This document shows, piece by piece, positions 29,228-45,373 of a stretch of 64,000 nucleotides of DNA; positions within the stretch are counted from its first letter, which is position 1; every line of letters begins with the position of its first letter. A program made the translations under genes and the position numbers. Origin of the DNA: Pseudomonas abietaniphila. Its GTDB lineage: Bacteria; Pseudomonadota; Gammaproteobacteria; Pseudomonadales; Pseudomonadaceae. Below the pieces are notes generated by a model. The model made no database searches and had not been told where the DNA came from. It was given only the letters and a program-made list of their open reading frames with translations. The stretch spans positions 1,674,001 through 1,738,000 of the forward strand of contig NZ_CP155619.1 in assembly GCF_039697315.1 (NCBI RefSeq). The letters are read 5' to 3'.

Positions 29228-29269
29228 AGGATCTTTTCGAAAAGTCGGCGAGCGAAGGTCAGGCAAGGC

Positions 29270-29430: not shown

Positions 29431-29452
29431 TGGTCGGTCCAGGACGACTGTG

Positions 29453-31345
29453 ATGAAATGCGATCCCCCTCTTAGCGCGCCGCCATCACTTGCCGTGAAA
29501 CCCCGCCTGATCCGCCATCTGTTCCTGCCGCCACTGGTCATCCTGCTGATGATCGCGCTGGGTTATGTCACCTATCTGTACAGCGAAAAGAACGGCATCA
29601 AGGCACTGGGCGAGAACGGTGAGCGTCAGCTCGAGCTGCACGCCCGCACCGTCGAAAGCGAAATCAACAAATACAACTACCTGCCCAGCGTGCTGGAGCT
29701 CGAATCCAATGTCTCTGATCTGCTCAACGACCCGTCGCCGGAGTTGAGAAGCAAGGTCAACGACTACCTCGAAGGCCTGAATCGTCGCAGCCGTAGCCGC
29801 GCCATCTATGTGCTCGACACCACGGGCCGCGTGCTGGCCACCAGTAACTGGCGTGACGCCGACAGTTATCTGGGTGAAGACCTGTCCTTCCGCGCGTATT
29901 ACCAGGACGCGATTCGCGGTCTGCCCGGTCGCTTCTACGGCATCGGCAGCACCACCGGTGAACCCGGTTATTACCTGGCCCACGGGCTGGAGGAGAAAGG
30001 CAAGATCATCGGCGTGGCGGTGATCAAAGTACGCCTGGAAGCCCTCGAAGAACGCTGGCAGCGTGCGCGCCTGGAGGCGTTCGTCAGTGACGAGAACGGC
30101 ATCATCATTCTGTCCAGCGACCCGGCCAGACGCCTGAAATCGGTCCGTCCGTTGACCGCAGAGGTCAAGGAACGCCTGGCGCGCAGCCTGCAATATTACT
30201 GGTGGCCGCTGAACGAGTTGGTGCCCCTTGAGCGGGAGTTGATCGCCGACGGCGTCGAGAAGCTGACCTTTCCCGCCAACAGCAGCGTCGACCATGAACA
30301 CACCGTAGTGAGCTATCTGGCACAGACCCGCGACCTCGCGGACACGCCGTGGCACCTGACCTTGCTCACGCCGCTGGAAGACTTGCGTCGCGAAGCGGCC
30401 AACCAAGGCATGCTGGTGGCCGTTGCCTGCGCGCTGGTGGCGTTCCTGCTGATCGCCTGGAACGAGCGCCGCAAGGTGATTTCCACCCGCCTCGCCGCGC
30501 GGGAGGCCCTCGAGCAAGCCAACAACGAACTGGAGCGTCGGATTACCGAACGCACCGCCGATCTGCGCGCCAGCAACGAGCGCCTCAAGGGCCAGATTCG
30601 TGAACGACGTCAGGCCGAGGAAACCCTGCGTCAGGCGCAAGACGAACTGGTTCAGGCCGGCAAGCTGGCCGCCATCGGACAGATGTCCACCAGCATCGCC
30701 CATGAACTCAACCAGCCGCTGGCGGCGTTGCGCACGCTGTCGGGCAACACCGTACGCTTCATCGAGCGCGGCGCGCTGGACACCGCCAGCACCAACCTGC
30801 GAACCATCAACGATCTGGTCGACCGTATGGGCCGAATCACCGCCAGCCTGAGGGCGTTTGCCCGACGCGGCGAAGACAAAGGTCAGGCGTCGTTGGGCAA
30901 GGCCGTGGAAGCGGCCTTGCAGTTGTTGGCCGGACGCCTGGAAGCCAGCGCTCTGGATCTGCATCAGCAGATCGATGATGTCGAACTGGCAATCGATCAA
31001 ACCCGCCTTGAACAGATTCTGGTGAACCTGATCGGCAACGCGCTGGACGCCATGCAGGCGCAACCGCTGCCCGTGCTGTGGCTCGAAGGTGACCTGTTCG
31101 AAGGCCGGTATCGCTTGCGGGTTCGCGACAACGGACATGGCATCGACGCCGAAGCACGCAAGCATCTGTTCGAACCGTTTTTTACCACCAAACCTGGCGA
31201 GCAGGGTCTGGGATTGGGACTGACCCTGTCGGCCAGTCTCGCCGCTGCCGCGGGTGGCAGCCTCAATGCTGAAGACCCGGCCGAAGGCGGCACGATGTTC
31301 GTGCTGATTTTGCCGCTGGTGAACAGCGGGGCTCCGATCATATGA
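29453..31345 (+). CDS. aauS: Sensor histidine kinase for acidic amino acids, DctB-type
   Basis: 630 residues. One membrane helix near residues 18-40, a periplasmic Cache-like sensor region to about 325, a second helix (MLVAVACALVAFLLIAW), a coiled coil, then the kinase: phospho-accepting His417 in IAHELNQPLAAL and ATP-binding boxes NALDAM, DNGHGI and GLGLGL. It should sense glutamate/aspartate and phosphorylate AauR. Start at 29453; ATG at 29369 is the alternative. Confidence 0.9.
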   Translation: MKCDPPLSAPPSLAVKPRLIRHLFLPPLVILLMIALGYVTYLYSEKNGIKALGENGERQLELHARTVESEINKYNYLPSVLELESNVSDLLNDPSPELRSKVNDYLEGLNRRSRSRAIYVLDTTGRVLATSNWRDADSYLGEDLSFRAYYQDAIRGLPGRFYGIGSTTGEPGYYLAHGLEEKGKIIGVAVIKVRLEALEERWQRARLEAFVSDENGIIILSSDPARRLKSVRPLTAEVKERLARSLQYYWWPLNELVPLERELIADGVEKLTFPANSSVDHEHTVVSYLAQTRDLADTPWHLTLLTPLEDLRREAANQGMLVAVACALVAFLLIAWNERRKVISTRLAAREALEQANNELERRITERTADLRASNERLKGQIRERRQAEETLRQAQDELVQAGKLAAIGQMSTSIAHELNQPLAALRTLSGNTVRFIERGALDTASTNLRTINDLVDRMGRITASLRAFARRGEDKGQASLGKAVEAALQLLAGRLEASALDLHQQIDDVELAIDQTRLEQILVNLIGNALDAMQAQPLPVLWLEGDLFEGRYRLRVRDNGHGIDAEARKHLFEPFFTTKPGEQGLGLGLTLSASLAAAAGGSLNAEDPAEGGTMFVLILPLVNSGAPII

Positions 31346-31380
31346 ATCACATCCCGGAAAGTCGCCGACCGGGCCATTTT

Positions 31381-31444
31381 TTCGCGGATGAATCCGCTCC
31401 CACAGAGGGTCGCATTCTTCCTGTGGGAGCGAATTCATTCGCGA
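31381..31444. repeat. REP pair in outward orientation between aauS and aauR
   Basis: TTCGCGGATGAATCCGCTCC, then a spacer, then TGTGGGAGCGAATTCATTCG. The two arms point away from one another, unlike the REPINs elsewhere in the window, and separate the kinase and regulator genes. Confidence 0.85.
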
Positions 31445-31475
31445 TGAAGGCAACGCTGATGGATTGGATTTGCAC

Positions 31476-32801
31476 ATGAACACTGAATTGACCGTCCTCA
31501 TCGTCGAAGACGATCCTCATGTCCTGCTTGGCTGCCAACAGGCGCTCGCGCTGGAGGACATTCACAGTCAGGGCGTCGGCAGCGCCGAAGAGGCGTTGGC
31601 GCTGGTCGGCGACGATTTTGCCGGTATCGTCATCAGTGATATCCGTCTGCCTGGCATCGACGGCCTTGAACTGCTCAAACGCCTGAAGGAACGCGACCGC
31701 ACACTGCCAGTGGTGCTGATCACCGGCCATGGCGACGTGTCGATGGCCGTCGGCGCGATGCGCGATGGCGCGTACGACTTCATGGAAAAGCCCTTCTCTC
31801 CCGAACGCCTGGTGGACGTTGCCCGCCGTGCGCTGGAACAGCGCGGACTGGCGCGGGAAGTCTGGTCACTGCGTCGGCAACTGGCCGAGCGCGACTCGCT
31901 CGAAGGCAAGATCATCGGCCGTTCGGCGGCGATGCAGAACCTGCGCGCGTTGATCGCCAACGTCGCCGACACCTCGGCGAACGTGCTGATCGAAGGTGAA
32001 ACCGGGACCGGCAAAGAGCTGGTTGCCCGCTGCCTGCATGATTTCAGTCGGCGTCACGCCAGTCAGTTCGTCGCCCTGAACTGCGGCGGCCTGCCGGAAA
32101 ACCTGTTCGAGAGTGAAATATTCGGTCATGAAGCCAACGCCTTTACGGGCGCGGGCAAGCGTCGTATCGGCAAGATCGAGCACGCCCACAACGGCACGCT
32201 ATTCCTCGATGAGGTCGAAAGCATGCCGATCAATCTGCAGATCAAGCTGCTGCGGGTCTTGCAGGAGCGCACGCTGGAACGGCTGGGTTCCAATCAGAGC
32301 GTGGCCGTCGATTGCCGGGTCATCGCGGCCACCAAATCCGACCTCAATGAACTGAGCCAGGCCAGTCAGTTCCGCAGCGACCTGTATTACCGCCTTAACG
32401 TGGTGACCCTGGAATTGCCGCCGTTGCGTGAACGTCGCGAGGACATCCTGCAACTGTTCGAGCATTTCCTACAGTTGTCCTCACTGCGTTTCGACCGTGA
32501 ACCGCCACAGCTCGACCCGCAGACAATGTCGGCTCTGATGAGCCACGACTGGCCCGGCAACGTCCGCGAACTGCGCAATGTCGCCGAGCGTTACGCGCTG
32601 GGCCTTCCAGCCTTCAAGAAGTCAGGGCTGACGGCGGCCAGCCAGAGCCTTGGCTTTTCCGAGGCCGTCGAAGCCTTCGAGAAGAACCTGCTCACTGAAG
32701 CTTTGCAGCGCAGCGGCGGCAATCTCAGTCAGGCGAGCCAGGAATTGGGGATGGCCAAGACCACGCTGTTCGATAAGGTGAAGAAGTACGGGTTGGGTTG
32801 A
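31476..32801 (+). CDS. aauR: Sigma-54-dependent response regulator
   Basis: 441 residues, NtrC/DctD type. Receiver with Asp55; AAA+ ATPase with Walker A GETGTGKE and Walker B GTLFLDEV; C-terminal Fis-type HTH (GGNLSQASQELGMAKTTLFD). The sigma-54 contact loop reads NAFTGA (residues 221-226) instead of GAFTGA. Expected to activate aatJQMP. ATG at 31476 (MNTELTVLIVEDD) is used. Confidence 0.93.
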   Translation: MNTELTVLIVEDDPHVLLGCQQALALEDIHSQGVGSAEEALALVGDDFAGIVISDIRLPGIDGLELLKRLKERDRTLPVVLITGHGDVSMAVGAMRDGAYDFMEKPFSPERLVDVARRALEQRGLAREVWSLRRQLAERDSLEGKIIGRSAAMQNLRALIANVADTSANVLIEGETGTGKELVARCLHDFSRRHASQFVALNCGGLPENLFESEIFGHEANAFTGAGKRRIGKIEHAHNGTLFLDEVESMPINLQIKLLRVLQERTLERLGSNQSVAVDCRVIAATKSDLNELSQASQFRSDLYYRLNVVTLELPPLRERREDILQLFEHFLQLSSLRFDREPPQLDPQTMSALMSHDWPGNVRELRNVAERYALGLPAFKKSGLTAASQSLGFSEAVEAFEKNLLTEALQRSGGNLSQASQELGMAKTTLFDKVKKYGLG

Positions 32802-32885: not shown

Positions 32886-32903
32886 TTGGCCCACCCTTTG
32901 CAA
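32886..32903 (+). promoter_or_regulatory. Candidate sigma-54 promoter of the 32973-35850 operon
   Basis: TTGGCCCACCCTTTGCAA: GG and GC exactly ten bases apart and a near-consensus -12 (TTTGCA). Start of transcription would be near 32913, 60 bases before the first gene. Confidence 0.7.
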
Positions 32904-32972
32904 TCCTCCTGAAAGCCCCGCCCGGCCAGCGTTCATGCCCATGAACCCGGTGTCTGGAGCGGCCTTTCACGA

Positions 32973-33905
32973 GTGAACACAACGTTGAACATTCTCGATC
33001 TCGATCACAGCTTGACGCAGCAGGCCCCGATCAAGGAGCGTCTGCAAGACGGCCGCGCAATGCGTCTGGACCTTCTTGAACTGGGGCCTTCACTGCGACT
33101 CTGGTCCACGGAACGCAATTACAAACGGTTTGCCGGACACTTGAGCCAACGCGCCAGGCCGCTGGCTGACCGTCCGGAAATCTTTTTCGTCGGCTCCGGC
33201 GACTACCACCACCTTACCCCTGCGTTGCTCGCCGATCTTGAAGAACCGGTGAGCCTGATCCATTTCGACAATCACCCCGACTGGGTGCATTTCGCGCCGA
33301 AGCGGCATTGCGGCTCATGGGTCAACCGAGCGCTGAAGCTGCCGAACGTCCGGCGCATCGTCACGCTGGGGCCCTGCAGCGACGATCTGCAAACGCCGCA
33401 ATTGAAGGGCGGAAACCTCAGCGCATTGAAGCGCGGCACCCTGCAGCTGTTTCCCTGGCGCCATCCACCTTCCAGGGTCTGGGGCCATGTGGGCGACGGG
33501 CCAGGCCATCAACAGGCGGAGGGTCACCTGCACTGGCATAACCTGGTCGAGGTCGACTGGCCGATTTTCCTTGAACAACTGCTGGCGAGCCTGCCCACCC
33601 AAGCGGTGTGGATCACCATCGACAAAGACGTGCTTGCGGACGAAGACGCCGCCACCAATTGGGACCAGGGCGGTATGCGCCTGCATCATTTGCTCTCCGC
33701 CGTGCGCGCGCTGGCGACCGGCAAGCGTGTGCTGGGCATCGATGTGTGCGGCGAGTTCGCCCCCCCTGCCTTCAGCAACCCGTTTAAACGCTGGGAAGCC
33801 AGGTCCGATCAACCACCGGCCGAGCGATGGAGCGAACACGATCTGCAGCGTAATGCGCGGACCAATGCTGCGCTGATCGCGTTGTTCGAGGAGCTGTTTC
33901 CATGA
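32973..33905 (+). CDS. Ureohydrolase-fold (arginase/UPF0489-like) protein
   Basis: 310 residues, GTG start. Three stretches resemble the metal ligands of arginase/agmatinase: GSGDYHH (residues ~73-79), HFDNHPDW (~97-104) and ITIDKDVLADEDA (~213-225). The spacing and exact residues differ from true arginases and are nearer to UPF0489-like proteins. I infer a metal-dependent hydrolase of unknown substrate. Its stop overlaps the next gene by four bases; first gene behind a sigma-54 element. Confidence 0.65.
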   Translation: MNTTLNILDLDHSLTQQAPIKERLQDGRAMRLDLLELGPSLRLWSTERNYKRFAGHLSQRARPLADRPEIFFVGSGDYHHLTPALLADLEEPVSLIHFDNHPDWVHFAPKRHCGSWVNRALKLPNVRRIVTLGPCSDDLQTPQLKGGNLSALKRGTLQLFPWRHPPSRVWGHVGDGPGHQQAEGHLHWHNLVEVDWPIFLEQLLASLPTQAVWITIDKDVLADEDAATNWDQGGMRLHHLLSAVRALATGKRVLGIDVCGEFAPPAFSNPFKRWEARSDQPPAERWSEHDLQRNARTNAALIALFEELFP

Positions 33906-34276
33906 CGCCGACTGTTGTACTGCTGACAGCGCTGTCGATTCTGCTCGATGTGATTGGACAACTGGCGTTCAAGCTCGGCCTGGACCAGCTTCCTGAACAC
34001 GAGGACGGGTTTCGGCTGGGTCATTTCTGGCGGCAGATCGCCGGCGCGCCGTTGTTGTGGTGCGGAGTGAGCGCCTACGTGATCGAGTTCATCACCTGGT
34101 TGTTCGTACTGTCGCTGGCACCGCTGAGCCTGGTCTTTCCCGCCGCCAGCCTGAGCTATGTCGGGGTGGTGCTGGGCGGAAGGCTGGTGCTGGGGGAAAC
34201 CGTCAGCCGCCGTCGCTGGCTCGGCACCCTGGTCATCACCACCGGCGTCATGCTGGTTTGCGCCACGGGCGCGTGA
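33902..34276 (+). CDS. Small DMT-type membrane protein, ArnE/ArnF-like (first of a pair)
   Basis: 124 residues with four hydrophobic helices (about 4-24, 48-70, 75-95, 105-122). The motifs GQLAFKLG near the start and LSLVFPAASLSYV in helix 3 resemble ArnE/ArnF, the paired small subunits that flip undecaprenyl-linked aminoarabinose, and more distantly EmrE-type exporters. Co-transcribed with a transferase and a second such protein, so lipid-linked or small-molecule export is likely. Substrate unknown. Confidence 0.78.
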   Translation: MTPTVVLLTALSILLDVIGQLAFKLGLDQLPEHEDGFRLGHFWRQIAGAPLLWCGVSAYVIEFITWLFVLSLAPLSLVFPAASLSYVGVVLGGRLVLGETVSRRRWLGTLVITTGVMLVCATGA

Positions 34277-34283
34277 GGATTTC

Positions 34284-35444
34284 ATGACACAACTGCAAGC
34301 GGTTACCGCGCACCTGTCCCCGGCCAGCCTGACCGACGCCCCCGCGCTGAACGTCGAGGTCAGTCACAGCATCCATCGCATCAGTCGCACTGACTGGGCT
34401 CAACTGCAAAGCGATGAGCTGGAAGGCTATGACTATTACGCCGCCATTGAGGAAGCCGAACTACCAGGTATTGAACCTCGTTATTTCATGGTTCGCCACG
34501 GCCAGCGTCTGATTGCCGTCGCACCGGCCTATTGCCAGAGGTTCAAGCTCAATCAGGTGCTTGAGGGCCTGCCCCGCCGTCTGTTCGGAAGGTATTCAGC
34601 ACCGATACTGGCGATCGGCTCCCCTGTCACCGAGGCGTGCTCCATCGCCTGCGCGCCAGACTGGCTGCCGCGCACACCCGAGCTGATCAATGCGCTGGTC
34701 GCCCAGTTACACCGCCAATGCCGCCTGGAAGGTGCTTGGCTTTACCTGTTCAAGGACGTCGCCGAAGAACAGACGAGCGTGCGCAGTGCGCTGGAGCACC
34801 TGAGGTTCAACCGCATCAGCGGTATGCCTCGCACACGACTGCCGCTGCCTTATCCAGATCTGGCCGGGTATCTCGCCCGTCTTGGCCGCGCCACGCGCAA
34901 AGGGCTCAGGCGCAAGCTCAATACCCCATCCGATTTGCGTATCGAAGCGCGTCACCATCAGGTCGATGACGTCATTGAACGCATGCTTGAACTGTACGCC
35001 GACACGGTGGCGCGCAGTGGTGAAGAGATCGAGCCGCTGAACGCCGGGTACTTCAAGGCCGTGTTGGCCAAACTCGGCGAGCGCGCCACGTGTTACCTGT
35101 TCTGGTCGGGGAAAACCCTGATCGGCTTCAACCTGCTGCTAGGCAACGGAACACGGCAAATCGACAAGGTCTTCGCCTCCGACGGGTCGGCTGCGTGTGA
35201 ACACAATCTGTACCACCGCACATGGCTGGCCCATGTAGACCGATGCATTACCGCCGGCATTCCGGCCTTCGAAGCCAGTCAGGCCGCGTACGCTGAAAAG
35301 CTGCGATTGGGCTGTGGGCTGCTGGCAAACGACCACTACTTCCATCATCGCAACGCGCTGGTGACTCGCGCGCTGGGCTGGCTCGTGCGCAAGGCGGGGC
35401 TGGATCAGGCGACGGTTGTCGCAAAGGAGTCGGAACATGAGTGA
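34284..35444 (+). CDS. FemAB/GNAT-like transferase A
   Basis: 386 residues, no signal peptide or membrane helix. The C-terminal half has the acyl-CoA N-acyltransferase-like (Acetyltransf_6/FemAB-like) pattern: CYLFWSGKTLIGFNLLLG, EHNLYHRTWLAHVD and AYAEKLRLGCG. Clearly paralogous to the protein at 41086-42213. Members transfer acyl or aminoacyl groups to amines. Start ATG at 34284 follows GAGGATTTC; the reading frame extends upstream into the previous gene. Sandwiched between two ArnE/F-like genes. Confidence 0.75.
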   Translation: MTQLQAVTAHLSPASLTDAPALNVEVSHSIHRISRTDWAQLQSDELEGYDYYAAIEEAELPGIEPRYFMVRHGQRLIAVAPAYCQRFKLNQVLEGLPRRLFGRYSAPILAIGSPVTEACSIACAPDWLPRTPELINALVAQLHRQCRLEGAWLYLFKDVAEEQTSVRSALEHLRFNRISGMPRTRLPLPYPDLAGYLARLGRATRKGLRRKLNTPSDLRIEARHHQVDDVIERMLELYADTVARSGEEIEPLNAGYFKAVLAKLGERATCYLFWSGKTLIGFNLLLGNGTRQIDKVFASDGSAACEHNLYHRTWLAHVDRCITAGIPAFEASQAAYAEKLRLGCGLLANDHYFHHRNALVTRALGWLVRKAGLDQATVVAKESEHE

Positions 35445-35850
35445 TCAGACGTTGAGCACAAAACCGGCGTGGCGCTGGCTGGAAAGCCGTGCCGCGACCA
35501 TCGGCCTGTGGACCTTGCTGATCGGTACCGAGAGCGCCGCACAGCTAGCGCTGAAGGTCGGCGGCGACGGGTTGGCGACCGTGCCGTTCGGCGTCGAGTG
35601 GCTTCTCGCGGCGCTGAGCAATATCGCGGTGCTGACGGCGGGGGGCTGTTACATCGGCTCGTTCCTGAGCTGGATGTTGATCCTGCGGCGTAGCAGCCTG
35701 TCGCTGGCGTTTCCATTGAGTTCGCTGGTGTTTGTGGTGGTGCTGCTGGGCTCATGGCTAGGCCTGGGCGAGCACATCAGCGCCCTGCACTGGTTGGGGG
35801 TGTGGGTGATCATTGGCGGGATAGGGTTGCTGGCGGAGGGTGAAGCATGA
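35437..35850 (+). CDS. Small DMT-type membrane protein, ArnE/ArnF-like (second of a pair)
   Basis: 137 residues, four hydrophobic helices after a short cytoplasmic N-terminus. AAQLALKVGG, SLAFPLSSLVFV and HWLGVWVIIGGIGLL align by eye with ArnE/ArnF. Probably forms a heterodimer with the 33902 protein. Overlaps the transferase gene by eight bases. Last gene of the operon; a REPIN follows. Confidence 0.8.
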   Translation: MSDQTLSTKPAWRWLESRAATIGLWTLLIGTESAAQLALKVGGDGLATVPFGVEWLLAALSNIAVLTAGGCYIGSFLSWMLILRRSSLSLAFPLSSLVFVVVLLGSWLGLGEHISALHWLGVWVIIGGIGLLAEGEA

Positions 35851-35935
35851 AACGGCAGCTCAGGGTTTCAACGCGAAATCCGGGAGCCGCTCCTACCACT
35901 CTGGTGTCCGCCGCACATCCCGGTTGACGCTGAAC

Positions 35936-36075
35936 CCTGTAGGAGCGTGGCTTGTCCCGCGATCTGGCGGGAACCGCCAGTAGAGCCACTCAACCGCGTT
36001 GAATCTGACATACAGCATTTGCCGGATTTGCGACGGGTTCCCCGCCGATCGCGGGACAAGCCACGCTCCTACAGG
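35936..36075. repeat. Long REPIN of the GTAGGAGCG...CCGCGA type
   Basis: Arms TGTAGGAGCGTGGCTTGTCC and GGACAAGCCACGCTCCTACA with about 95 bases between; a single further arm (GCCGCTCCTACC) lies at 35885-35897. Between convergent genes. Confidence 0.9.
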
Positions 36076-36107
36076 TTTGGGCTAAAACCGGAAACATGAG
36101 GACACGT

Positions 36108-36974
36108 TCAAGACCTCGAATGATCCAGCAAAAACCCCAACCCGTGCGACACGGGAATCTCCTTCACCCCCATCATGCGTTGCTGCTCCTTGATCTCCTT
36201 GTGGAACGCCTTGACCTTGGTCCAGTGCATCTTGGGCCGATAGTGATGTTCGGCGTGGTAGCCGTTGTTCATCCAGATGAGGTTGTAGAGCTTGCTATAG
36301 GAGCTGACGCCCCAGGCAATGGGCAGGTCGGGGTTGCCGCCAAGATGTTCGTAATAGCCGTTCAACGATGACAGCGATTGCCCCAAATACCAGAACGGCA
36401 CCAGCAGCAGGACCGCGTGCCAGTCGTAGAACGCCAGCGCGATGTAGGCTGCCATCGTCATGTAGATTTCCACCTTCGCCCAACGCGCATCGTCAGGGTG
36501 TTTGCGCTTCATTTCTTCGTAGTAGCTCTTGGGCTCGTCACGAAAAGCGCTGAGGAACACGTAGCGCCACAGGGCTTCAGGCTCGCCATTGTGGCCATAG
36601 CGATAAATCGACAGCGGGTCGACCGTTTCGCCCTTTTCATTGGGCCGGTCGGAGTTGCCGCGATGGTGGCGGTTGTGGATGTCGCGGTACATGGTTTGCG
36701 AGAAGCCGATGGTCACCGACAGCAGCAGATCGAACGCCCGGTTCATGCCTTTGTGAGTGAAATAGGGGTTGTGAATCTGGTTGTGCGAGATGCTGTTGAT
36801 GCTCCACGACAGGCTCACGGCATACAGCAGCGCCAAGGGCACGATGGCCCACCACGACAGACTGTGAAACGCCGTGACCAGCCAGAGCACGAATGCGAAA
36901 TGCGCCAGCGCCATGGCAATCGGGACGACGTCCCAGAGTGAGTACGCGAGCCAGCGATAGACGGGACGAGCCAT
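36108..36974 (-). CDS. Membrane fatty-acid desaturase/hydroxylase-like protein
   Basis: 288 residues, several hydrophobic helices and three histidine boxes of the di-iron membrane desaturase family: SHNQIHNP, HNRHHRG and HAEHHYRP. Such enzymes use O2 and electrons to introduce a double bond or hydroxyl in acyl chains in the inner membrane. Electron donor and acyl substrate unknown. It follows the MipA-like gene by 65 bases on the same strand and lies between the two sigma-54-linked operons. Confidence 0.85.
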   Translation of the reverse strand: MARPVYRWLAYSLWDVVPIAMALAHFAFVLWLVTAFHSLSWWAIVPLALLYAVSLSWSINSISHNQIHNPYFTHKGMNRAFDLLLSVTIGFSQTMYRDIHNRHHRGNSDRPNEKGETVDPLSIYRYGHNGEPEALWRYVFLSAFRDEPKSYYEEMKRKHPDDARWAKVEIYMTMAAYIALAFYDWHAVLLLVPFWYLGQSLSSLNGYYEHLGGNPDLPIAWGVSSYSKLYNLIWMNNGYHAEHHYRPKMHWTKVKAFHKEIKEQQRMMGVKEIPVSHGLGFLLDHSRS

Positions 36975-37039
36975 GAAGAACTTCCTCGAAACAGAGACGT
37001 GTTCTTCAGGTCATTGCAAGGGCCAGACCAATCCGGGGA

Positions 37040-37825
37040 TCACTTGAAATGGTAAGCCACCGCGACGTCCAGTTCGCCTTGATTCACGCGGCCTTGCTGA
37101 CGAACGATGCTGCTGTCGGCTGCTGACCCGACCAGGTGAATCCAGCTGGCGCTTGTGATCAGCGACCAGTTCGGCGCCAACGGGAAGGCCACGCTCTGGG
37201 TGAGGGTCAGGTTCTGGAAGCCGCCGCTCGCGTTGTAGGCGCGTATGCCGGAAGCCTGTGATTCGGGGCCGCTCACGCCATAAAAGGTCTGTGCCTGTTC
37301 GGCATTGGCGTAATGCGCAGCCAGGGTCGTGCCGCCGAAGATGCCTCTGCCCAGCGGGTAGTCCAGTTCACCTCCGACCCGCCCCAACACGCCGCCCTGG
37401 CCATTGCTGCCGCCGAACGTGCGGCCCACCTCGGCGAACACACGCCAGACGTCCGAGGGGCTGTATTCGACGAAACCGCCAACCTCGCCCATGTCCGACA
37501 CGTCATGCAGGCCATGCAGCGCGCCATTGGCCGTGCGGCCCTGAACGTAGTTGACGAAGGGCCCGGCGCTCCAGCCGCTGGCTTTGATCGCATCCCAGGA
37601 CAACCCCTCGTCCGAGCTCAGGTTGACCCGCCCCCATGACAGATCGAGATAGGGCACGGGCCGGGTTTCATAGCGGCTCCCGGTCGGGTCATCCGGCTGG
37701 TAGGCAACCCCGGCGCCGACATCACCGGTCAGGGAATCCGCGTGACACAAAGGGCTGAACCAGGCGGCGCAAAGCAGCCCGGCGACGCACAGGTTGCGCT
37801 TGAAAGAACACGGCAGAACGGTCAT
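37040..37825 (-). CDS. MipA/OmpV-family outer-membrane protein
   Basis: 261 residues with a signal peptide (cleavage near residue 29, CHA/DS) and a C-terminal pattern of alternating residues ending in aromatic Phe-Lys (VAYHFK), as in beta-barrels. Sequence features DVGAGVAYQPDD, RPVPYLDLSWG and AGPFVNY fit MipA/OmpV (MltA-interacting protein). Role: outer-membrane scaffold or channel, substrate unknown. Divergent from the second sigma-54 operon. Confidence 0.82.
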   Translation of the reverse strand: MTVLPCSFKRNLCVAGLLCAAWFSPLCHADSLTGDVGAGVAYQPDDPTGSRYETRPVPYLDLSWGRVNLSSDEGLSWDAIKASGWSAGPFVNYVQGRTANGALHGLHDVSDMGEVGGFVEYSPSDVWRVFAEVGRTFGGSNGQGGVLGRVGGELDYPLGRGIFGGTTLAAHYANAEQAQTFYGVSGPESQASGIRAYNASGGFQNLTLTQSVAFPLAPNWSLITSASWIHLVGSAADSSIVRQQGRVNQGELDVAVAYHFK

Positions 37826-37899
37826 GGCAGCGATCTCGGGGCGGCGAACATGCGCGCATCAATCCCCAGACCTGACCGCCAGCGCAAGCACTGATCTTG

Positions 37900-37926
37900 T
37901 TTGTAGCGAGCTACAAAAATTGTAGC
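37900..37926. promoter_or_regulatory. Palindrome upstream of the second sigma-54 promoter, likely activator site
   Basis: TTTGTAGC-GA-GCTACAAA is a perfect 8-2-8 inverted repeat, followed at once by a further half-site TTGTAGC (37920-37926). Its centre is about 85 bases upstream of the -24 element, typical for an NtrC-class enhancer. The activator is probably the one encoded at 43976-45373. It lies between this operon and the divergent mipA-like gene. Confidence 0.65.
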
Positions 37927-37989
37927 TTCGTGAGTCTCTGATGCCCCCGATCTCGTATCAAAGCCCATCGCAATCAGGCTTCCAGCGCC

Positions 37990-38007
37990 TTGGCACAGTC
38001 CCTGCTC
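37990..38007 (+). promoter_or_regulatory. Candidate sigma-54 promoter of the 38077-45373 operon
   Basis: TTGGCACAGTCCCTGCTC: TGGCAC is the consensus -24 and GG/GC are exactly ten bases apart. Transcription would start near 38017. This also excludes the upstream TTG at 37990 as a translation start. Confidence 0.75.
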
Positions 38008-38076
38008 CTGCCCTGTCACGAGACCCCGGCGCCCCGCTCGCCCGGCTCATTCCTAGGACAAGACAGGCAACCACAG

Positions 38077-38775
38077 ATGATGCAATGGCATATCGTGTGC
38101 GACTTCGACGGGACGATCACCCCGACCGACGTCATCGACAACATTCTGGAGCGCTTCGCCGACCCAAGCTGGGCAGATATCGAAGACGCGTGGATCAGTG
38201 GCCGGATCGGTTCGCGCGAGTGCCTCAGCCTTCAGCTGTCGCTGGTCAAGGCGTACCCGGCGCAACTGCTGGACTATTTCGACAGCGTCGAGATCGACCC
38301 CCACTTTCCGGCGTTCGTCGAGCAAGCGCTTGGGCTGGGTGCGACGATGGCTATCGTCAGCGACGGGCTGGAGCAAGGCATCGCGCGGATTCTTTCCCGG
38401 CACAGGCTTCCCCTTCTCCCGATCATTGCCAACGGCCTGCGTCAGGTTGACCGGGATCGCTGGCGCATCGTGTTCCCTTACGCCAGCGATGCCTGCCGCG
38501 CGGCCTCCGGCAACTGCAAGTGCCGATCCACGCCTGACAACAAGCGCGTGCTGGTGATCGGTGACGGCAAGTCCGACATGTGCGTGGCCGAAACGGCTGA
38601 CTTCGTGTTCGCCAAAGGACGCCTCGCCGAGCATTGCGAACGCAACGGCATCCCCTTCGCCCGCTTCGACTCCTTCGCCGAATTACCCGCGCTGCTGGCC
38701 TTGCTGCCTCACAGCCTGCCATCGCCAACCGTACGCCTCCCTCTTGAACAGCAGGAACTCTTTCACCATGTCTGA
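38077..38775 (+). CDS. HAD-IB phosphatase (MtnX-like)
   Basis: 232 residues. Motif I CDFDGTITPTD (nucleophile Asp near 9), motif II IVSDG and motif IV GDGKSDMCVA of the haloacid dehalogenase superfamily; a C-x-C (SGNCKCRS) precedes motif IV. Nearest in look to phosphoserine phosphatase/MtnX types, so it probably dephosphorylates a small metabolite. Two ATGs (38077, 38080) are possible. Stop overlaps the next gene; first gene of a six-gene operon. Confidence 0.85.
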   Translation: MMQWHIVCDFDGTITPTDVIDNILERFADPSWADIEDAWISGRIGSRECLSLQLSLVKAYPAQLLDYFDSVEIDPHFPAFVEQALGLGATMAIVSDGLEQGIARILSRHRLPLLPIIANGLRQVDRDRWRIVFPYASDACRAASGNCKCRSTPDNKRVLVIGDGKSDMCVAETADFVFAKGRLAEHCERNGIPFARFDSFAELPALLALLPHSLPSPTVRLPLEQQELFHHV

Positions 38776-40162
38776 CATTCGCATCGCAACCCCCGAAGAC
38801 CAGGTCCTCCTGGAGAAAGAAGCCCGATACTGCTCGTATGGCGACACCGTCCATTACATCGACCCGCCACGTATCTTCAGCCGCTGCGAAGGCTCCTACG
38901 TCTACGACACCAGTGATCAGGCTTACCTTGACCTGCAAATGTGGTACTCGGCGGTCAACTTCGGCTACGCCAATCCGCGTTTGAATAACGCGCTCAAGCA
39001 ACAGATCGACACGCTGCCGCAGATCGCCAGCCAGTACCTGCACAAAGGCAAGATCGAGCTGTCGGAACACATCGCGGTGGACGCCAAGAAGAAATTCGGT
39101 CTGGACGGTCGCGTGCATTTCAACGTCGGCGGCTCGCAGTCCATCGAGGACTCGCTGAAAGTGGTGCGCAACGCGAGCAACGGAAAGAGCCTGATGTTTG
39201 CCTTCGAAGGCGGCTATCACGGGCGTACGCTGGGCGCCTCCTCGATCACCTCCAGCTACCGCTATCGTCGTCGTTACGGTCATTTCGGCGAGCGCGCGCA
39301 GTTCATCCCGTTCCCGTACCACTTCCGCGGCCCCAAAGGCATGACCAAAGAGGAATACGGCAGCCACTGCGTTCAGCAATTCGCCCGCCTGTTCGAAACC
39401 GAATACAACGGTGTCTGGGACCCGAAAGTCGGCCAGAGCGAATACGCAGCGTTCTACGTCGAGCCGATTCAAGGCACCGGCGGTTACGTGATCCCGCCCA
39501 TGAACTTCTATTCCGAGCTCAAGCATGTCCTCGACCAGCACGGCATCCTGATGGTGGTCGATGAGATCCAGATGGGTTTCTATCGCACCGGCAAGCTGTG
39601 GTCGATCGAGCATTTCGACGTCAAACCGGACGTGATCGTGTTCGGCAAGGCCCTCACCAACGGGCTTAACCCATTGGGCGGGATCTGGGCCCGAGAAGAG
39701 TTGATCAACCCGAAAATCTTCCCACCAGGCTCCACCCATTCTACTTTCGCCTCCAATCCATTGGGCACGGCGGTGGGTCTGGAAATGTTCAAGATGACCT
39801 CGGAAATCGACTACGGCGCGATGGTCATGAACAAGGGCAAGTATTTCCTTGAAGGGCTGCGCGACTTGCAGAAGCGTTACCCGATCATCGGCGACGTCGA
39901 CGGTCTGGGTTTGGCCCTGCGCGCTGAAATTTGCGGGCCGGACGGCTTCACGCCAGACAAGGCGACGCTGGACTTCATGGTCGAGGAAGGCATGAAGGGC
40001 GACATCGAAATCGATGGCAGACGCCTGGGCCTGGTGCTCGATGTCGGCGGTTACTACAAGAACGTGATCACGCTGGCCCCCTCGCTGGAGATCAGTTATC
40101 CCGAGATCGATCTGGGTATCGCCCTGCTCGACCGCCTGCTGCACCGGGCCATGAAACGATGA
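38768..40162 (+). CDS. Class III PLP aminotransferase
   Basis: 464 residues, fold type I. The PLP pocket shows VVDEIQMGFYRTG and the Schiff-base Lys294 in VFGKALTNGLNPLGG; GGYHGRTLGASS is the phosphate-binding region. Such enzymes transaminate omega-amines or decarboxylate or aminate keto compounds; substrate unknown. ATG at 38768 overlaps the phosphatase stop by eight bases, and its own stop overlaps the hydrolase start by four. Confidence 0.9.
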   Translation: MSDIRIATPEDQVLLEKEARYCSYGDTVHYIDPPRIFSRCEGSYVYDTSDQAYLDLQMWYSAVNFGYANPRLNNALKQQIDTLPQIASQYLHKGKIELSEHIAVDAKKKFGLDGRVHFNVGGSQSIEDSLKVVRNASNGKSLMFAFEGGYHGRTLGASSITSSYRYRRRYGHFGERAQFIPFPYHFRGPKGMTKEEYGSHCVQQFARLFETEYNGVWDPKVGQSEYAAFYVEPIQGTGGYVIPPMNFYSELKHVLDQHGILMVVDEIQMGFYRTGKLWSIEHFDVKPDVIVFGKALTNGLNPLGGIWAREELINPKIFPPGSTHSTFASNPLGTAVGLEMFKMTSEIDYGAMVMNKGKYFLEGLRDLQKRYPIIGDVDGLGLALRAEICGPDGFTPDKATLDFMVEEGMKGDIEIDGRRLGLVLDVGGYYKNVITLAPSLEISYPEIDLGIALLDRLLHRAMKR

Positions 40163-41082
40163 ACACGGCGCCGTCGCAAACCGCGATCGACATGGGCGAA
40201 GGCGACGCCGGTTTCATCCTGGGCGATGGCGCAGTGGGTGTGTTGTTGATCCACGGCCTGACGGGCACCCCGACGGAACTGCGTCGGGTCGCCCAAGGCC
40301 TGGCAGACAGAGGCTGCACGGTGTACGTGCCGACGCTGGCCGGCCACTGTGGCGACAACGACGACCTGCAGCGCACCCGCTGGAGCGACTGGTACGAAAG
40401 TGCCCGTCGCACCTTTGTCGGGATTCGCCAGCGACACAGTCAGGTGTTCGTTGGCGGGCTGTCGATGGGGGCGGTCATGTCGATGCACATGGCCGCACAA
40501 CACCCGGGGGAAATTGCCGGGCTTTTGCTGTACTCGACGACCTTGCGCTACGACGGCTGGAACATGCCGTTCGTGGCCAAGTTCACGCACCTCTACATGA
40601 TGGTGCCGTTTGGCGTACACGTTTGTCGCTTCAACGAAAAGCCGCCCTATGGCATCAAGAATCCACGCCTGCGGGCGATCGTCGAAAAGCAGATGAAAGA
40701 CGGCGAAAGTAACAACGCCGGGCTGCTGACCATGTCCGGCATCAGCGTGCGCGAGTTGCACCGCCTGATCGCCGTCGTCAAACGTGGCATGCCGCAGGTG
40801 ACGACACCTGCGCTGGTGCTGCACTCACTTGAAGATGACATCACTAGCCGCTGGAACGCCGATTACGTCGAACGGCGTCTGGGAGCGCCGGTGGTCAAGG
40901 TCCTGCTGGACAACTGCTATCACATGATCACGGTCGATCTGGAATACCGTCAGGTCATTGCCCTGAGCGCTTCATTCATTGAAACCCGTGTGCGGGCAAG
41001 CCTGGGGATGGGCGACGCATCAAGCGACCGTCAACCTGAGAACAGCCTGACCCATCATGACGACTCCCCCCAACTGGCCTGA
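40159..41082 (+). CDS. Alpha/beta hydrolase, carboxylesterase-like
   Basis: 307 residues without signal peptide. Oxyanion region LLIHGLTGTPTE, nucleophile Ser102 in GGLSMG, acid in HSLEDDITS and catalytic His in NCYHMITVD. Resembles Est30-type carboxylesterases or thioesterases. Ends three bases before the transferase gene. Probably releases or transfers an acyl group in the pathway, an inference from context. Confidence 0.87.
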   Translation: MNTAPSQTAIDMGEGDAGFILGDGAVGVLLIHGLTGTPTELRRVAQGLADRGCTVYVPTLAGHCGDNDDLQRTRWSDWYESARRTFVGIRQRHSQVFVGGLSMGAVMSMHMAAQHPGEIAGLLLYSTTLRYDGWNMPFVAKFTHLYMMVPFGVHVCRFNEKPPYGIKNPRLRAIVEKQMKDGESNNAGLLTMSGISVRELHRLIAVVKRGMPQVTTPALVLHSLEDDITSRWNADYVERRLGAPVVKVLLDNCYHMITVDLEYRQVIALSASFIETRVRASLGMGDASSDRQPENSLTHHDDSPQLA

Positions 41083-41085
41083 ATC

Positions 41086-42213
41086 ATGATCACTGCGCAC
41101 GCCTTTTCCAGCATCCGCTCCATTGATCGTGACGAATGGAACAGCTGCTTTCCCGGTCTGCTCGAGGACTGGGATTTTTATCTCGCCGTCGAGCAAGCGG
41201 GCATCGAACGTTTCACCTGGCGCTACCTGGCGGTCTTTGAAGGCCCGACCTTGATGGCGGTCGTTCCCGCTTTCATCACCTGCTACCGCTTGAACACCAC
41301 GATGCAGGGTATCGGAAAACGCATCACCGACACGCTCAGCCGGCTGTGGCCCGGCGTGCTCGATTTGCCGTTGTACGCCCTGGGCTCGCCCGTCGCCGAA
41401 CGATGCAGCGCAGGGATCGCGCGCCACGTGCCCGAGGGCAAACGCCAGGACGTGCTCACCCGCTTGCTGCAATTGGCCCGGCGTGATGCCGACGGCCTGG
41501 GCATCGGTCTGCTGGCCGTGAAAGATGCGCCCCGCGACGACCGTCTGTGGACCGAGACCTGTCGCGGTGCGGGGCTGCAAGTTATGCCGGGAATGCCCAG
41601 CGCCTTGTTGCCTGTGTCGTACGGGTCTCTCGATGCGTATCTGGGTTCATTGGGCAGGTCTACCCGAAAGGATTTGCGACGCACGCTGCGCGGTCCGGGA
41701 CCGCGTATCGAATGGCGCCGACACATCGATGACCTGCTCCCGGACATCATGCGGCTGTACGAATCGACACTGGCGCGCAGTCATCTACAATTCGAACGGC
41801 TCGGCCCCGCTTACTTCACGCGCATTCTGGAACAGCTCGGCGAGCGGGCGGTGTGCGTGCTGTACTGGATCGATGACAGGCTGGTGGCGTTCAACCTGAT
41901 GCTGCTGGATGATCAACGCATGATCGATAAAATCTTCGCCCACGATCTGGAACGCACCCGTGAGCACAACCTCTATGCACGCAGTTGGCTGGCCAATGTC
42001 GAATACTGCATCCACCACGGTATCGCGGTGTACGAAGCGGGCCAGGCAGGCTATGCCAACAAGCTGCGCTTCGGCTGTCGCTTCGAAAACAACCTGCTTT
42101 TCTTCCGCCACCGCAACCGGACGCTGAACACCGTGCTCAAACTGGTCAAACTGTTCGTCCGACCGGACCGATCCGACCCCGCGATGGCCGCCGCCATAAG
42201 CGAACATCAATGA
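41086..42213 (+). CDS. FemAB/GNAT-like transferase B
   Basis: 375 residues, paralogue of the 34284 protein: AYFTRILEQLGERAVCVLYW, EHNLYARSWLANVEYC and AGYANKLRFGCRFENNLLF line up with it along the whole length. Probably an acyl or aminoacyl transferase on an amine made by the upstream aminotransferase (inference). Stop overlaps the kinase start by four bases. Confidence 0.75.
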   Translation: MITAHAFSSIRSIDRDEWNSCFPGLLEDWDFYLAVEQAGIERFTWRYLAVFEGPTLMAVVPAFITCYRLNTTMQGIGKRITDTLSRLWPGVLDLPLYALGSPVAERCSAGIARHVPEGKRQDVLTRLLQLARRDADGLGIGLLAVKDAPRDDRLWTETCRGAGLQVMPGMPSALLPVSYGSLDAYLGSLGRSTRKDLRRTLRGPGPRIEWRRHIDDLLPDIMRLYESTLARSHLQFERLGPAYFTRILEQLGERAVCVLYWIDDRLVAFNLMLLDDQRMIDKIFAHDLERTREHNLYARSWLANVEYCIHHGIAVYEAGQAGYANKLRFGCRFENNLLFFRHRNRTLNTVLKLVKLFVRPDRSDPAMAAAISEHQ

Positions 42214-43979
42214 CTGATACCCCAAAGCAGGCGGTGCGGGCGTTTTTTTCTCTTTCGCGCTGGAGCGTGCAGCGCAAACTGGTGCTGGCGTTCTGGCTGG
42301 TCAGCGTCATCCCGACCATGATCGCCGCCGAGCTGGCCGCCTCCACCCTGTCGCAGATCTTCGAGAGCAACGTGCGCATCTGGTTGCAGGAGTCGACCAA
42401 GATCGTGATTGATGAAACCACCGAAATCATGCACAACAACGCCCGTGTCGCGCAGTTGTTCGAGCGCTATGCACGCCCCAACGCCGACTCGGGCAACAAA
42501 CGCGACAAGTTGATTACCGACATCGCCGACGCCATGGGCATCGACGTGGTGGCGCTGATCCGCAGCGATGATCACAAGGTCGTCTTCTCCACCGCTGCCG
42601 ACGACATCGTCAGCCAGATCAGCCTGGCGCCCAAAGCCGTCCTGCAGACCATCCACGAAGGCGGCAATCCCGTGGGCACCGTTGTCTCCACGTTTCATAC
42701 CCTCCAGGGCGGCGTCGACTATGTGCTGGTGATCGCCACTTACCTGGACAGCAGTTTCCTGACCAGCGTGGCCGATGTGCACTCGCTTGACCTGCGGCTG
42801 TACCTGCGCAACCCCAGCGGCTTCGGCGAAGTATTTTCCACCCAGCGCTTCGAAGACCATCCGACCGAAGTGCCCGCACGCATCGAGAACATTCTGCGCG
42901 AGACGCGGCAGCCCAGCGAACAGTCGACGTCGCGTTACAGCGGCCTGTACTCGCCGATTGTGAACGACAACGGTGAGCTGCAAGGGGTGATATTCAGCGG
43001 CCTGCTGCGTCATTCGACCCTGGTGGGCCTGGTCAACCAGACCAACCTGTTTCTGGCGATTCTGCTGGTCGGTTCCGCGTTGTCGCTGGGCGTCGGCTGG
43101 TTGATATCTCAACACCTGACCCGCCCGCTGCGAGGCCTGCGCGAAGGCGTACGTGCGGTGACCGCCGGTGATTACCATCGCCAGGTCGAGGTCATCGGCG
43201 GCGATGAACTGGCCGAGCTGAGCGTGACCTTCAACCACATGACCGAACGCTTGCGCGAACTTCAGCATCTGGAAGCTCAGCTGCGCCGGCGCGACCGGTT
43301 GCACACGCTGGGCGAAGTGGCGATGGGGCTGGCGCACGAGATCCGCAACCCGCTGGGCATCATCAAGACGGCCACGCAATTGCTGCACCGTCGAGCCAGT
43401 CTGCCGGCAGCCGACATGCGTCATCTGGAATACGTCATTTCTGAAGTGACCCGCATCAATGACCTGATCACTGAATTTCTCGACTTCGCCAAACCCAGCG
43501 CGCCCATTCGCTCAATCCAGCCAGCCCGGCAGTTGCTTGAGCACGTGCTGGGGTTCTGCGCGCCGGAACTGGAGACCCATCACGTTGAGGCAGTGATCGA
43601 TGAGCGCGCGCCGGGAGCCACGGTGTACGCCGATGCCAGACAACTGACCCAGGCCTGTCTCAACCTGATCCTCAACGCCATCGATGCCATGCCCTCAGGA
43701 GGCCGATTGACACTCTCCATCTCTCGCGGGCAGGCTGACAAAGGACGCGCTGTCACGATGATCAGCGTCAGTGACACGGGTCAGGGTATCGAGCCGGAGA
43801 TCATAGAACGTATCTTCAACCCCTTCGTCACCACCAAAGCCTCCGGCACAGGGCTGGGCCTGGCCAAGGTGTTTTCGATCATGGAAAACCATGACGGCCG
43901 AGTGGAATGTGTGAGCGAATCCGGTGCCGGTGCGACGTTCAATCTGTACCTGCCCGCCGATGAAGGAGAACAGGCATGA
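42210..43979 (+). CDS. Membrane sensor histidine kinase, NtrB-class with HAMP
   Basis: 589 residues. Membrane helix 1 near residues 25-45, periplasmic sensor domain to about 270, helix 2 (LFLAILLVGSALSLGVGWLI), HAMP (about 298-350), then His376 in LAHEIRNPLGIIK and ATPase boxes NLILNAIDAM, DTGQGIEPE and GTGLGL. It should sense an envelope or periplasmic signal and phosphorylate the regulator downstream, whose start it overlaps by four bases. Confidence 0.93.
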   Translation: MTDTPKQAVRAFFSLSRWSVQRKLVLAFWLVSVIPTMIAAELAASTLSQIFESNVRIWLQESTKIVIDETTEIMHNNARVAQLFERYARPNADSGNKRDKLITDIADAMGIDVVALIRSDDHKVVFSTAADDIVSQISLAPKAVLQTIHEGGNPVGTVVSTFHTLQGGVDYVLVIATYLDSSFLTSVADVHSLDLRLYLRNPSGFGEVFSTQRFEDHPTEVPARIENILRETRQPSEQSTSRYSGLYSPIVNDNGELQGVIFSGLLRHSTLVGLVNQTNLFLAILLVGSALSLGVGWLISQHLTRPLRGLREGVRAVTAGDYHRQVEVIGGDELAELSVTFNHMTERLRELQHLEAQLRRRDRLHTLGEVAMGLAHEIRNPLGIIKTATQLLHRRASLPAADMRHLEYVISEVTRINDLITEFLDFAKPSAPIRSIQPARQLLEHVLGFCAPELETHHVEAVIDERAPGATVYADARQLTQACLNLILNAIDAMPSGGRLTLSISRGQADKGRAVTMISVSDTGQGIEPEIIERIFNPFVTTKASGTGLGLAKVFSIMENHDGRVECVSESGAGATFNLYLPADEGEQA

Positions 43980-45373
43980 GCCACAATGTGCTGGTGGTCG
44001 ACGACGAGCCCAAGCTCTGCGACCTGCTGGCCTCGGCCTTGGGTCAGAATGACATTCATGTGTTCACCGCCGGCAATGGTCTGCACGCACTTGCCGTGCT
44101 CGAACGCGAGGACATCGATCTGGTGATCAGCGACTGGCGCATGCCGGGCATGGACGGTCCGCAGTTGCTGAGTGAAATCAAACAGCGCTTTCCGCAACTG
44201 CCCGTGATCGTGATGACCGCCTACAGCACGGTCAAGAATGCGGTGCAGTCGATGCGAAACGGCGCTTACGATTACATCAGCAAACCGTTCGATATCGACG
44301 AGCTGGACATGACCGTGCACAAGGCGCTGCAGTTTCGCGACATCCTGCGCGACAACCAGCGACTGCGCGCAGAGCTGAACGAGCATCAACAGATCGAAAG
44401 CCTGGTCGGCGACAGCCCGGCGTTTCGGCGGGTCTTGCAGGCGGTGGAGTCGGTGCGTGAAAGCAGCGCGACCATCCTGCTCACCGGCGAAAGTGGCACG
44501 GGCAAGGAAATGGTCGCGCGCGCCATTCATCAACACGGCAATCGGGCCGAAAAGCCGTTTGTCGCGGTGAACTGTGCGGCGATTCCGGAGGGTTTGCTGG
44601 AAAGCGAGATGTTCGGCCACAAGAAAGGCGCGTTTACGGGTGCCGTTTCCGATCGCGTGGGTCGCTTTCAACAGGCCGACAAGGGCACCTTGTTTCTCGA
44701 TGAAGTGGGCGACATGCCGTTGGCGTTGCAGGCGAAAATTCTGCGGGCGTTGCAGGAGCGCGTGATCGAGCCGGTGGGTGATACCCGCGAGCGCAAGGTG
44801 GACGTCCGCGTGATCGCGGCCACCAACAAAAACCTTCTCGATGCCGTGGCGCGCAAGGAGTTTCGCGAAGACCTGTACTACCGATTGAATGTGTTCCCCA
44901 TACCGCTGCCCGCCTTGCGCGAACGGGTGGAAGACATTCCAGCGCTGGCGCGGCACTTTGCGCTGACGCTCGGCGCCACAGCCGGCAAACGCATCAACGG
45001 TTTCAGCCCGCAGGCCTTGCTCGCCATGACGAACTACAGCTGGCCGGGCAACATTCGCGAGCTGCAAAACTGCGTCGAGCGAGCGACCATCGTCGCGTCC
45101 GGCAGCACCATCGAAGAGTCCGATCTACCGGCCTACCTGTTCGGCTCAAGGCCGCTGGAGGGCTCTAGCGCACGCATTCTCAGCGACGGGCCGGGCATTC
45201 CCAAAGACCTTGATGCCGCCCTGGCAGAAGTCGAAAAAGCCTACATTCTAGCGGCGCTGCAAGAGACCCACGGCGTTCAGGCGGCGGCGGCACAACTGAT
45301 CGGCATCTCCGAGCGCAGCCTGTGGTACCGGCTCAAGAAACTGGAGATTCATGTCGACAAGATTGTGCGGTGA
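43976..45373 (+). CDS. Sigma-54-dependent response regulator, NtrC/ZraR type
   Basis: 465 residues. Receiver with Asp53 (ISDWRMPG), AAA+ domain with GESGTGKE, canonical GAFTGA loop and GTLFLDEVGDM, and a C-terminal Fis-type HTH (VQAAAAQLIGISERSLWYRL). It is the last gene of an operon that itself starts behind a -24/-12 promoter with an upstream palindrome, so positive autoregulation is likely. Confidence 0.94.
   Translation: MSHNVLVVDDEPKLCDLLASALGQNDIHVFTAGNGLHALAVLEREDIDLVISDWRMPGMDGPQLLSEIKQRFPQLPVIVMTAYSTVKNAVQSMRNGAYDYISKPFDIDELDMTVHKALQFRDILRDNQRLRAELNEHQQIESLVGDSPAFRRVLQAVESVRESSATILLTGESGTGKEMVARAIHQHGNRAEKPFVAVNCAAIPEGLLESEMFGHKKGAFTGAVSDRVGRFQQADKGTLFLDEVGDMPLALQAKILRALQERVIEPVGDTRERKVDVRVIAATNKNLLDAVARKEFREDLYYRLNVFPIPLPALRERVEDIPALARHFALTLGATAGKRINGFSPQALLAMTNYSWPGNIRELQNCVERATIVASGSTIEESDLPAYLFGSRPLEGSSARILSDGPGIPKDLDAALAEVEKAYILAALQETHGVQAAAAQLIGISERSLWYRLKKLEIHVDKIVR

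Follow-up and report, generated by a model that had tools for sequence, protein, structure and literature searches.

A tightly packed operon of six genes lies within a 64,000-nucleotide stretch of Pseudomonas abietaniphila DNA (contig NZ_CP155619.1, positions 1,674,001 to 1,738,000; referred to here as the window, with coordinates counted from its first base), and we describe the switch that appears to control it, the larger locus to which it belongs, and the pathway that it may encode. The genes, in the order HAD-AT3-ABH-FEM1-HK-RR, code for a phosphatase, a pyridoxal phosphate (PLP) enzyme, an alpha/beta hydrolase, a FemAB-like transferase, a histidine kinase and a sigma-54 activator (Table 1). 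They overlap by 8, 4, 4 and 4 bases with one 3-base gap, and this packing agrees with a previous reading of the DNA made without database searches (the sequence-only reading). Between 37826 and 45700, neither sigma-70-like sites (two, against a shuffle mean of 1.5) nor terminator-like sites (six, against 6.8) exceed chance. HAD scores far under the cut-offs for MtnX equivalogs, ABH matches PDB entries 4lhe and 3rli (E about 1e-29 each), and two hydrophobic segments of HK, recognized by eye, flank a large N-terminal region with no Pfam match. The operon forms one half of a locus at about 32887-45373, whose extension upstream to about 32887 the sequence-only reading had missed.

Table 1. Features of the locus, with window coordinates and the evidence for each assignment
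Feature	Coordinates	Strand	Evidence or remark
Operator (predicted upstream activating sequence)	37900..37926	+	two overlapping palindromes
Sigma-54-type -24/-12 element TGGCACAGTCCCTGCT	37991..38006	+	sequence match and conservation
HAD, MtnX-like HAD-IB phosphatase	38077..38775	+	TIGR01489, 82.7 bits (cut-off 81.55)
AT3, class III aminotransferase-fold PLP enzyme, distinct clade	38768..40162	+	PF00202, 240.7 bits
ABH, alpha/beta hydrolase, kin of bacterial monoacylglycerol lipase	40159..41082	+	PF12146, E 8.5e-19
FEM1, FemAB-like / GNAT-fold transferase	41086..42213	+	PF04339, 41.1 bits (cut-off 27); PF13480, 33.4 bits
HK, histidine kinase	42210..43979	+	HAMP, HisKA and HATPase domains
RR, activator, terminal gene of the operon	43976..45373	+	receiver, sigma-54 AAA+ (GAFTGA) and Fis-type helix-turn-helix (HTH) domains
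Second sigma-54-type -24/-12 element TGGCCCACCCTTTGC	32887..32901	+	precedes the arginase-fold/permease operon
ARG, arginase-superfamily protein, GTG start	32973..33905	+	PF00491, 37 bits (cut-off 22)
PERM1, small EamA/ArnF-like membrane subunit	33902..34276	+	ArnF model, E 1.2e-14, 54.7 bits (cut-off 99)
FEM2, second FemAB-like transferase	34284..35444	+	PF04339, 31.9 bits; 37% identity to FEM1
PERM2, small EamA/ArnF-like membrane subunit, partner of PERM1	35437..35850	+	ArnF model, E 3e-9, 37.4 bits (cut-off 99)
DES, fatty-acid-desaturase-superfamily protein	36108..36974	-	PF00487, E 1e-32
MIPA, MipA/OmpV outer-membrane protein, divergent from the operon	37040..37825	-	PF06629, E 1.3e-37

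The -24/-12 region ahead of HAD (TTGGCACAGTCCCTGCTC, 37990-38007) has GG and GC ten bases apart (TGGCACAGTCCCTGC) and is the sole mismatch-free match to TGGCACNNNNNYTGCW in the window. Matches with up to one mismatch number six in the window against a chance mean of 6.5; a match by itself thus proves little, and conservation was examined for this reason. The predicted operator begins with the palindrome TTTGTAGC-GA-GCTACAAA (37900-37917), 90 bases (start to start) ahead of the -24 element; the sequence-only reading had placed it about 85 bases upstream. TTGTAGCNNGCTACAA is matched perfectly only once in the window, at 37900-37917, and the first palindrome with up to one mismatch has a single occurrence in the 6.55-Mb genome. 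It is the second, overlapping palindrome, GCTACAA-AAA-TTGTAGC (37910-37926), that is seen again in other genera. In the form GCTACAA-N3-TTGTAGC it occurs twice in the window's genome, and the composite of operator and promoter only once; the extra bare palindrome, at genome position 2985595, has no -24/-12 element of the searched form downstream. Hairpins with arms of at least 7 lie between operator and -24 element in 12.5% of 72 loci compared with 0.8% in shuffles; that in the window has only three pairs.

To gauge conservation, we scanned each of 73 loci (the window, L035-L105 and L114; 72 are from Pseudomonas and one, L087, from Gammaproteobacteria, and some share a genome) for the best match to the palindrome within 350 bases upstream of HAD. 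All but one of the 73 have both a palindrome with no more than two mismatches and a -24/-12 element with no more than one. The best palindrome has no mismatch in 45 loci, one in 24, two in three and six in one, and the best -24/-12 element none in 54, one in 18 and three in one. The failing locus, L086:9232-12261, is an HAD-AT3-ABH copy lacking the kinase, the activator, the operator and such a promoter. Operator and promoter are separated by 78-79 bases in 21 loci, 88-91 in 48, 100-101 in two and 145 in one (L104), such that the spacing classes differ by about one helical turn; the L086 outlier stands at 58. Conservation across loci rules out a plain chance origin of the promoter, and the -24/-12 element and palindrome of the sequence-only reading are both borne out.

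A similar picture emerges from 398 genomes of the genus, 114 of which have AT3 and 110 the operator-promoter composite, with no matches to a reversed-pattern control. The composite and AT3 are found together in 109 genomes, AT3 without the site in five, the site without AT3 in one, and neither in 283. Each of the five genomes with AT3 alone has a near-match site (with a single mismatch or a wider gap), and the contig of the genome with the site alone breaks off within HAD. One genome, G786, has a second operator and -24/-12 element (L174:7955) with no core genes adjoining, which is either a relic or chance.

The switch is also seen in part outside Pseudomonas. We scanned 31 non-Pseudomonas loci (L031-L034, L106-L113 and L153-L171; these are not independent, several being from one genus) for the composite on both strands, a total of 559 kb. 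Five have it upstream of HAD and in the same direction, with palindrome to -24/-12 distances of 111 bases in L106 and L107, 71 in L156 and L170, and 82 in L165, where the palindrome has three mismatches. The sole further match comes from reading the L170 palindrome on the opposite strand; of the two control patterns, the reversed palindrome gave one match and the scrambled palindrome none. An RR-type activator is present in five of the 31 loci (L106, L107, L153, L156 and L165), including four of the five with the composite, and the contig of the other, L170, begins too late to show one. The HTH end of the activator is similar across the seven sequences compared with that of the window. Co-occurrence of site and activator in other genera is the trace that would be expected of a dedicated autoactivating regulator. 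Because operator and promoter are conserved, their spacing varies in classes about a helical turn apart, a genome usually has a single composite, and the activator co-occurs with the site elsewhere, we consider dedicated autoactivation by RR through the sigma-54 start to be well supported by sequence comparison, and with it the positive feedback proposed in the sequence-only reading.

The PLP enzyme, AT3, is 91-97% identical within Pseudomonas and 56-79% identical in the other genera seen. In an alignment of 235 sequences (115 from loci and 120 from a protein search, with some duplicates), the PLP lysine K294, D265 and T237 are found in every sequence and T435 in 233, the other two having a gap and a Cys. 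AT3 has the fold, K294 and D265 in common with the best solved homologue, 7vno, and with 9wqz and 9wrf, two solved racemases that also rank among its best homologues. In contrast, T237 aligns with Glu in 7vno (EPIQGE, where AT3 has EPIQGT) and with Asp in 9wqz and 9wrf, and T435 aligns with the C-terminal Arg in all three. This gate Glu and C-terminal Arg serve 2-oxoglutarate in ordinary class III transaminases. As the AT3 clade lacks both, plain transamination is uncertain, and AT3 probably does not work as a routine 2-oxoglutarate transaminase. Two arginines present in all 235 sequences, R165 and R167, might serve to bind phosphate or a carrier.

The upstream half of the locus has its own sigma-54-type element ahead of ARG, PERM1, FEM2 and PERM2. 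All 41 ARG loci have a -24/-12 element with up to one mismatch in the 300 bases ahead of that gene, and 10 of the 12 loci without ARG have one ahead of PERM1, compared with 284 of 3,886 random 300-base stretches. Within 260 bases upstream of the ARG promoter, no operator with up to one mismatch was found in 51 loci (one had up to two), and we therefore reject close-range service of this operon by an operator of the 37900 type. The metal-ligand motifs of ARG (GSGDxHH, DNHPD and DKD) are invariant in 17 aligned sequences. ARG scores 16.5 bits against the agmatinase equivalog model (cut-off 174.3), and a protein-database search with it returned generic names, where any. Among L031-L114, two FemAB-like frames, as in the window, are found only in L036, and in both the second FemAB-like gene (FEM2 in the window, L036:5550-6710 in the other) is inserted between the two permease genes.

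Several other features adjoin these genes. The region at about 35870-36080, between PERM2 and DES, contains inverted repeated sequence with GCGGGACAAGCCACGCTCCTACA and its complement, as judged by eye, which we take to resemble the repetitive extragenic palindromic (REP) elements of Pseudomonas. A sigma-54 element precedes MIPA in 4 of 70 loci, at or under background, and MipA was rejected as a sigma-54 gene. On the far side of ARG, a solute-binding/ABC transporter set (26049-32801), accompanied by a kinase and a sigma-54 activator of its own, adjoins the locus; in other Pseudomonas loci this set is inverted or moved relative to it.

Gene content was counted in 62 Pseudomonas loci of at least 19 kb. 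The activator and MipA are each present in 61, the PERM pair in 52, a FemAB-like gene in 47, ARG in 40 (always accompanied by a FemAB-like gene) and DES in 12; five loci retain HAD, AT3, ABH, kinase, activator and MipA with no FEM, ARG or PERM pair within the stretch. In a sample of the phylum, AT3 is present in 25 of 398 genomes, representing 12 of 212 genera, and plasmid records gave the first sighting of the locus genes elsewhere. Xanthomonas, Rhodanobacter, Wohlfahrtiimonas, Rhizobium and Agrobacterium also carry the core genes and those for the FemAB-like, arginase-fold and permease proteins. At distances of up to 10 kb from AT3 in the 31 non-Pseudomonas loci (counted with our own reference sequences, and with several contigs or stretches being short), HAD and ABH are each found in 28, FEM in 18, ARG in 17, the PERM pair in 16, a DegT-family gene in 11, an FtsX-type exporter gene and a ketoacyl synthase in 10 each, and an acyl carrier protein (ACP) in six; DES is present in two. 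HAD is missing from L159, L160 and L169, and ABH from L112, L160 and L169; FEM occurs without ARG in L163 and L166, and ARG without FEM in L170.

The arrangements in these relatives offer clues to the chemistry. In L167 and L168, a small frame (ACP in L168), a ketoacyl synthase, HAD, AT3 and ABH are consecutive on one strand, and L162 has the same gene order, interrupted ahead of AT3 by a gap of roughly 1 kb. In L166:7864-9465, on the minus strand, ABH and a short FemAB-like N-terminal part form a fusion (E 1e-66 and 1e-15), and frame and matches indicate a similar fusion from L163:2544 to the contig end. A cyclopropane-synthase-family gene follows ABH in L109, and the FemAB-like protein of L110 has a weak ATE_C match (E 0.004), a lead for the idea of arginyl transfer. 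Genes of the HlyD, ABC transporter and TolC families are annotated near L031. We also observed a 245-residue protein conserved beside ABH in L167:7420-8157 and L168:7828-8565, which come from related genomes; the L168 copy has no Pfam match. The most distant AT3 relative (L169:9412-11732; 56% identity) lies beside a sulfotransferase-family gene in place of HAD and ABH, and a protein-database search with it gave generic names, where any.

Three known systems resemble the locus in part. The PEP-CTERM/exosortase-A system has a PrsK/PrsR sensor kinase and sigma-54 activator and, like this locus, sets such a pair beside genes for a FemAB-like protein and an alpha/beta hydrolase within an envelope locus. 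However, no exosortase (PF09721) was matched in the window's genome, although one of 14 control genomes was positive; RR scores 408.6 bits against the PrsR equivalog TIGR02915 (cut-off 502.6), the hydrolase-2 model of that system reaches 19.6 bits in the locus (cut-off 202.75), and FEM1 has no NCBIfam match at E 0.01. Membership was therefore rejected, and to our knowledge the PEP-CTERM system includes no AT3, HAD or ARG. The Arn system, which modifies lipid A with 4-amino-4-deoxyarabinose and in which the ArnE/ArnF flippase moves lipid-linked sugars, shares with the locus paired small EamA subunits, an amine-related PLP enzyme and an envelope two-component system. Its PLP enzyme is nonetheless of the DegT type rather than class III, the PERM scores against the ArnF model (Table 1) argue against membership, and the locus genes scanned include no ArnT, ArnC, ArnA or ArnD (for which no genome-wide search was made). 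The scanned locus genes of the window include no glycosyltransferase or sugar-nucleotide enzyme, although glycosyltransferases are present near the Agrobacterium locus. Finally, AtoS and AtoC are the top NCBIfam matches of HK and RR, but both scores (221.4 against a cut-off of 646, and 480.4 against 714 bits, respectively) fall far short. No published description of the gene set was found in the literature searched, mostly outside subscription journals, in keeping with the sequence-only reading, whose author knew of no characterized system with this set. A root-attachment screen in Pf-5 names PFL_2045, an 'amino acid aminotransferase', and PFL_1752, a sensor kinase, either of which may or may not belong to this locus (PMC13390462).

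From the genes, their order, the sites and their conservation, we infer the following activation, signal, order of steps and product. An extracytoplasmic signal would activate HK, and phosphorylated RR would bind the predicted operator and, with RpoN, start transcription about 12 bases past the -12 element, so that all six genes are expressed; RR, as the last of them, would raise its own level. The second sigma-54 promoter would switch on ARG-PERM1-FEM2-PERM2. The conserved core of HAD, AT3 and ABH would create an amine group on a precursor, either acyl or phosphorylated acyl, with AT3 performing a PLP reaction without use of the standard 2-oxoglutarate site. FEM would acylate or aminoacylate the amine, ARG would trim a metal-hydrolysable group, and the PERM1/PERM2 pair would flip the lipid-linked product over the inner membrane. 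The fusions in L166 and L163 point to coupling of ABH and FEM. The sequence-only reading proposed dephosphorylation, then amination, then acylation or aminoacylation, an order that is conjectural.

With moderate confidence, we regard an accessory, autoactivated envelope-lipid locus with an amine-bearing acyl product as the best explanation, the operon being the half that supplies its regulators and core enzymes. The product is most likely an amine-bearing acyl lipid or lipid-linked envelope product, because the HAD-AT3-ABH core has ketoacyl synthase and ACP neighbors in relatives and is accompanied by an ArnE/ArnF-like pair, a desaturase or cyclopropane-synthase-family neighbor in some loci, MipA, and an FtsX-type exporter gene. 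The earlier suggestion of an envelope or small-molecule pathway therefore holds in its general direction. Several observations nonetheless weigh against our interpretation. The ketoacyl synthase and ACP are seen only in relatives, the search in Pseudomonas having covered the locus stretches, and the PERM scores fall under the Arn cut-offs. Three Nevskia loci (L106, L107 and L109), like the five Pseudomonas loci noted above, keep the core without FEM, ARG or PERM genes in the stretch, so that the core can do without these steps. The gate Glu is also absent from the racemases 9wqz and 9wrf, which have Asp in its place but keep the Arg. On the regulatory side, the activator is found in just 5 of the 31 non-Pseudomonas loci, so that the module does not come with this regulation in all cases, and L153 carries an activator yet shows no recognizable operator in the scan; sharing of genera among these loci reduces the weight of their counts. 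The 32887 promoter has no nearby operator, and distant activation may account for its control.

An alternative that we consider possible, although doubtful, is that the product is a secreted small molecule such as an antibiotic, a signal or a metal ligand rather than a membrane lipid, with the permease pair and the exporter of relatives as export routes. The patchy distribution of AT3, both within the genus (114 of 398 genomes) and in the phylum sample, would suit such a product, as would the on/off behavior of an autoactivated switch, and the FtsX-type exporter genes, the DegT-family genes and the HlyD, ABC transporter and TolC genes near L031 are consistent with it. However, the genes scanned include no synthetase-type assembly line, the small subunits look like ArnE/ArnF, a flippase for lipid-linked sugars, and MipA and desaturase neighbors fit a secreted product poorly.

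The locus could instead be an AtoSC-like catabolic module for an acylated or phosphorylated amine, in which AT3 deaminates, ABH and ARG hydrolyze, and HAD dephosphorylates. It does encode two hydrolases and a phosphatase, has AtoS and AtoC as the top matches of its kinase and activator, and adjoins the transporter set with its own two-component system. We nonetheless think this unlikely: the AtoS and AtoC scores are far under cut-off, no uptake system is present among the locus genes, the ABC neighbors sit at different places in different species whereas the core is kept intact, and the FemAB-like transferase and the ketoacyl synthase and ACP neighbors in relatives look biosynthetic. A different objection concerns the feedback itself, in that HAD-AT3-ABH-FEM1 might be sigma-54 dependent and HK-RR expressed from a constitutive promoter of its own, with no meaningful feedback. 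In L035, which lacks FEM1, about 100 bases separate ABH (ending at 12270) from HK (starting at 12374), sufficient to raise this arrangement, but the 4-base overlaps of FEM1, HK and RR in the window and the lack of sigma-70-like sites above chance make it quite improbable.

A broader proposal, which we offer tentatively and with more doubt than conviction, is that the autoactivated envelope-lipid locus represents a widely scattered and hitherto undescribed proteobacterial aminolipid pathway, in which a new class III-fold PLP reaction without a 2-oxoglutarate half-reaction acts on an acyl or phosphorylated carrier, followed by FemAB-like transfer, arginase-fold hydrolysis and an ArnE/ArnF-like flip, with the sigma-54 switch in place in Pseudomonas and some other genera. 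A kinase with an autoactivating sigma-54 activator is a known kind of regulation; the enzyme set under its control is one for which we found no description, and it spans Alpha- and Gammaproteobacteria. Because most carrier genomes have just one operator-promoter site, induction and deletion tests should be clean. If the product is indeed a new envelope aminolipid, the locus would add a lipid class, new PLP chemistry and a possible route to surface change.

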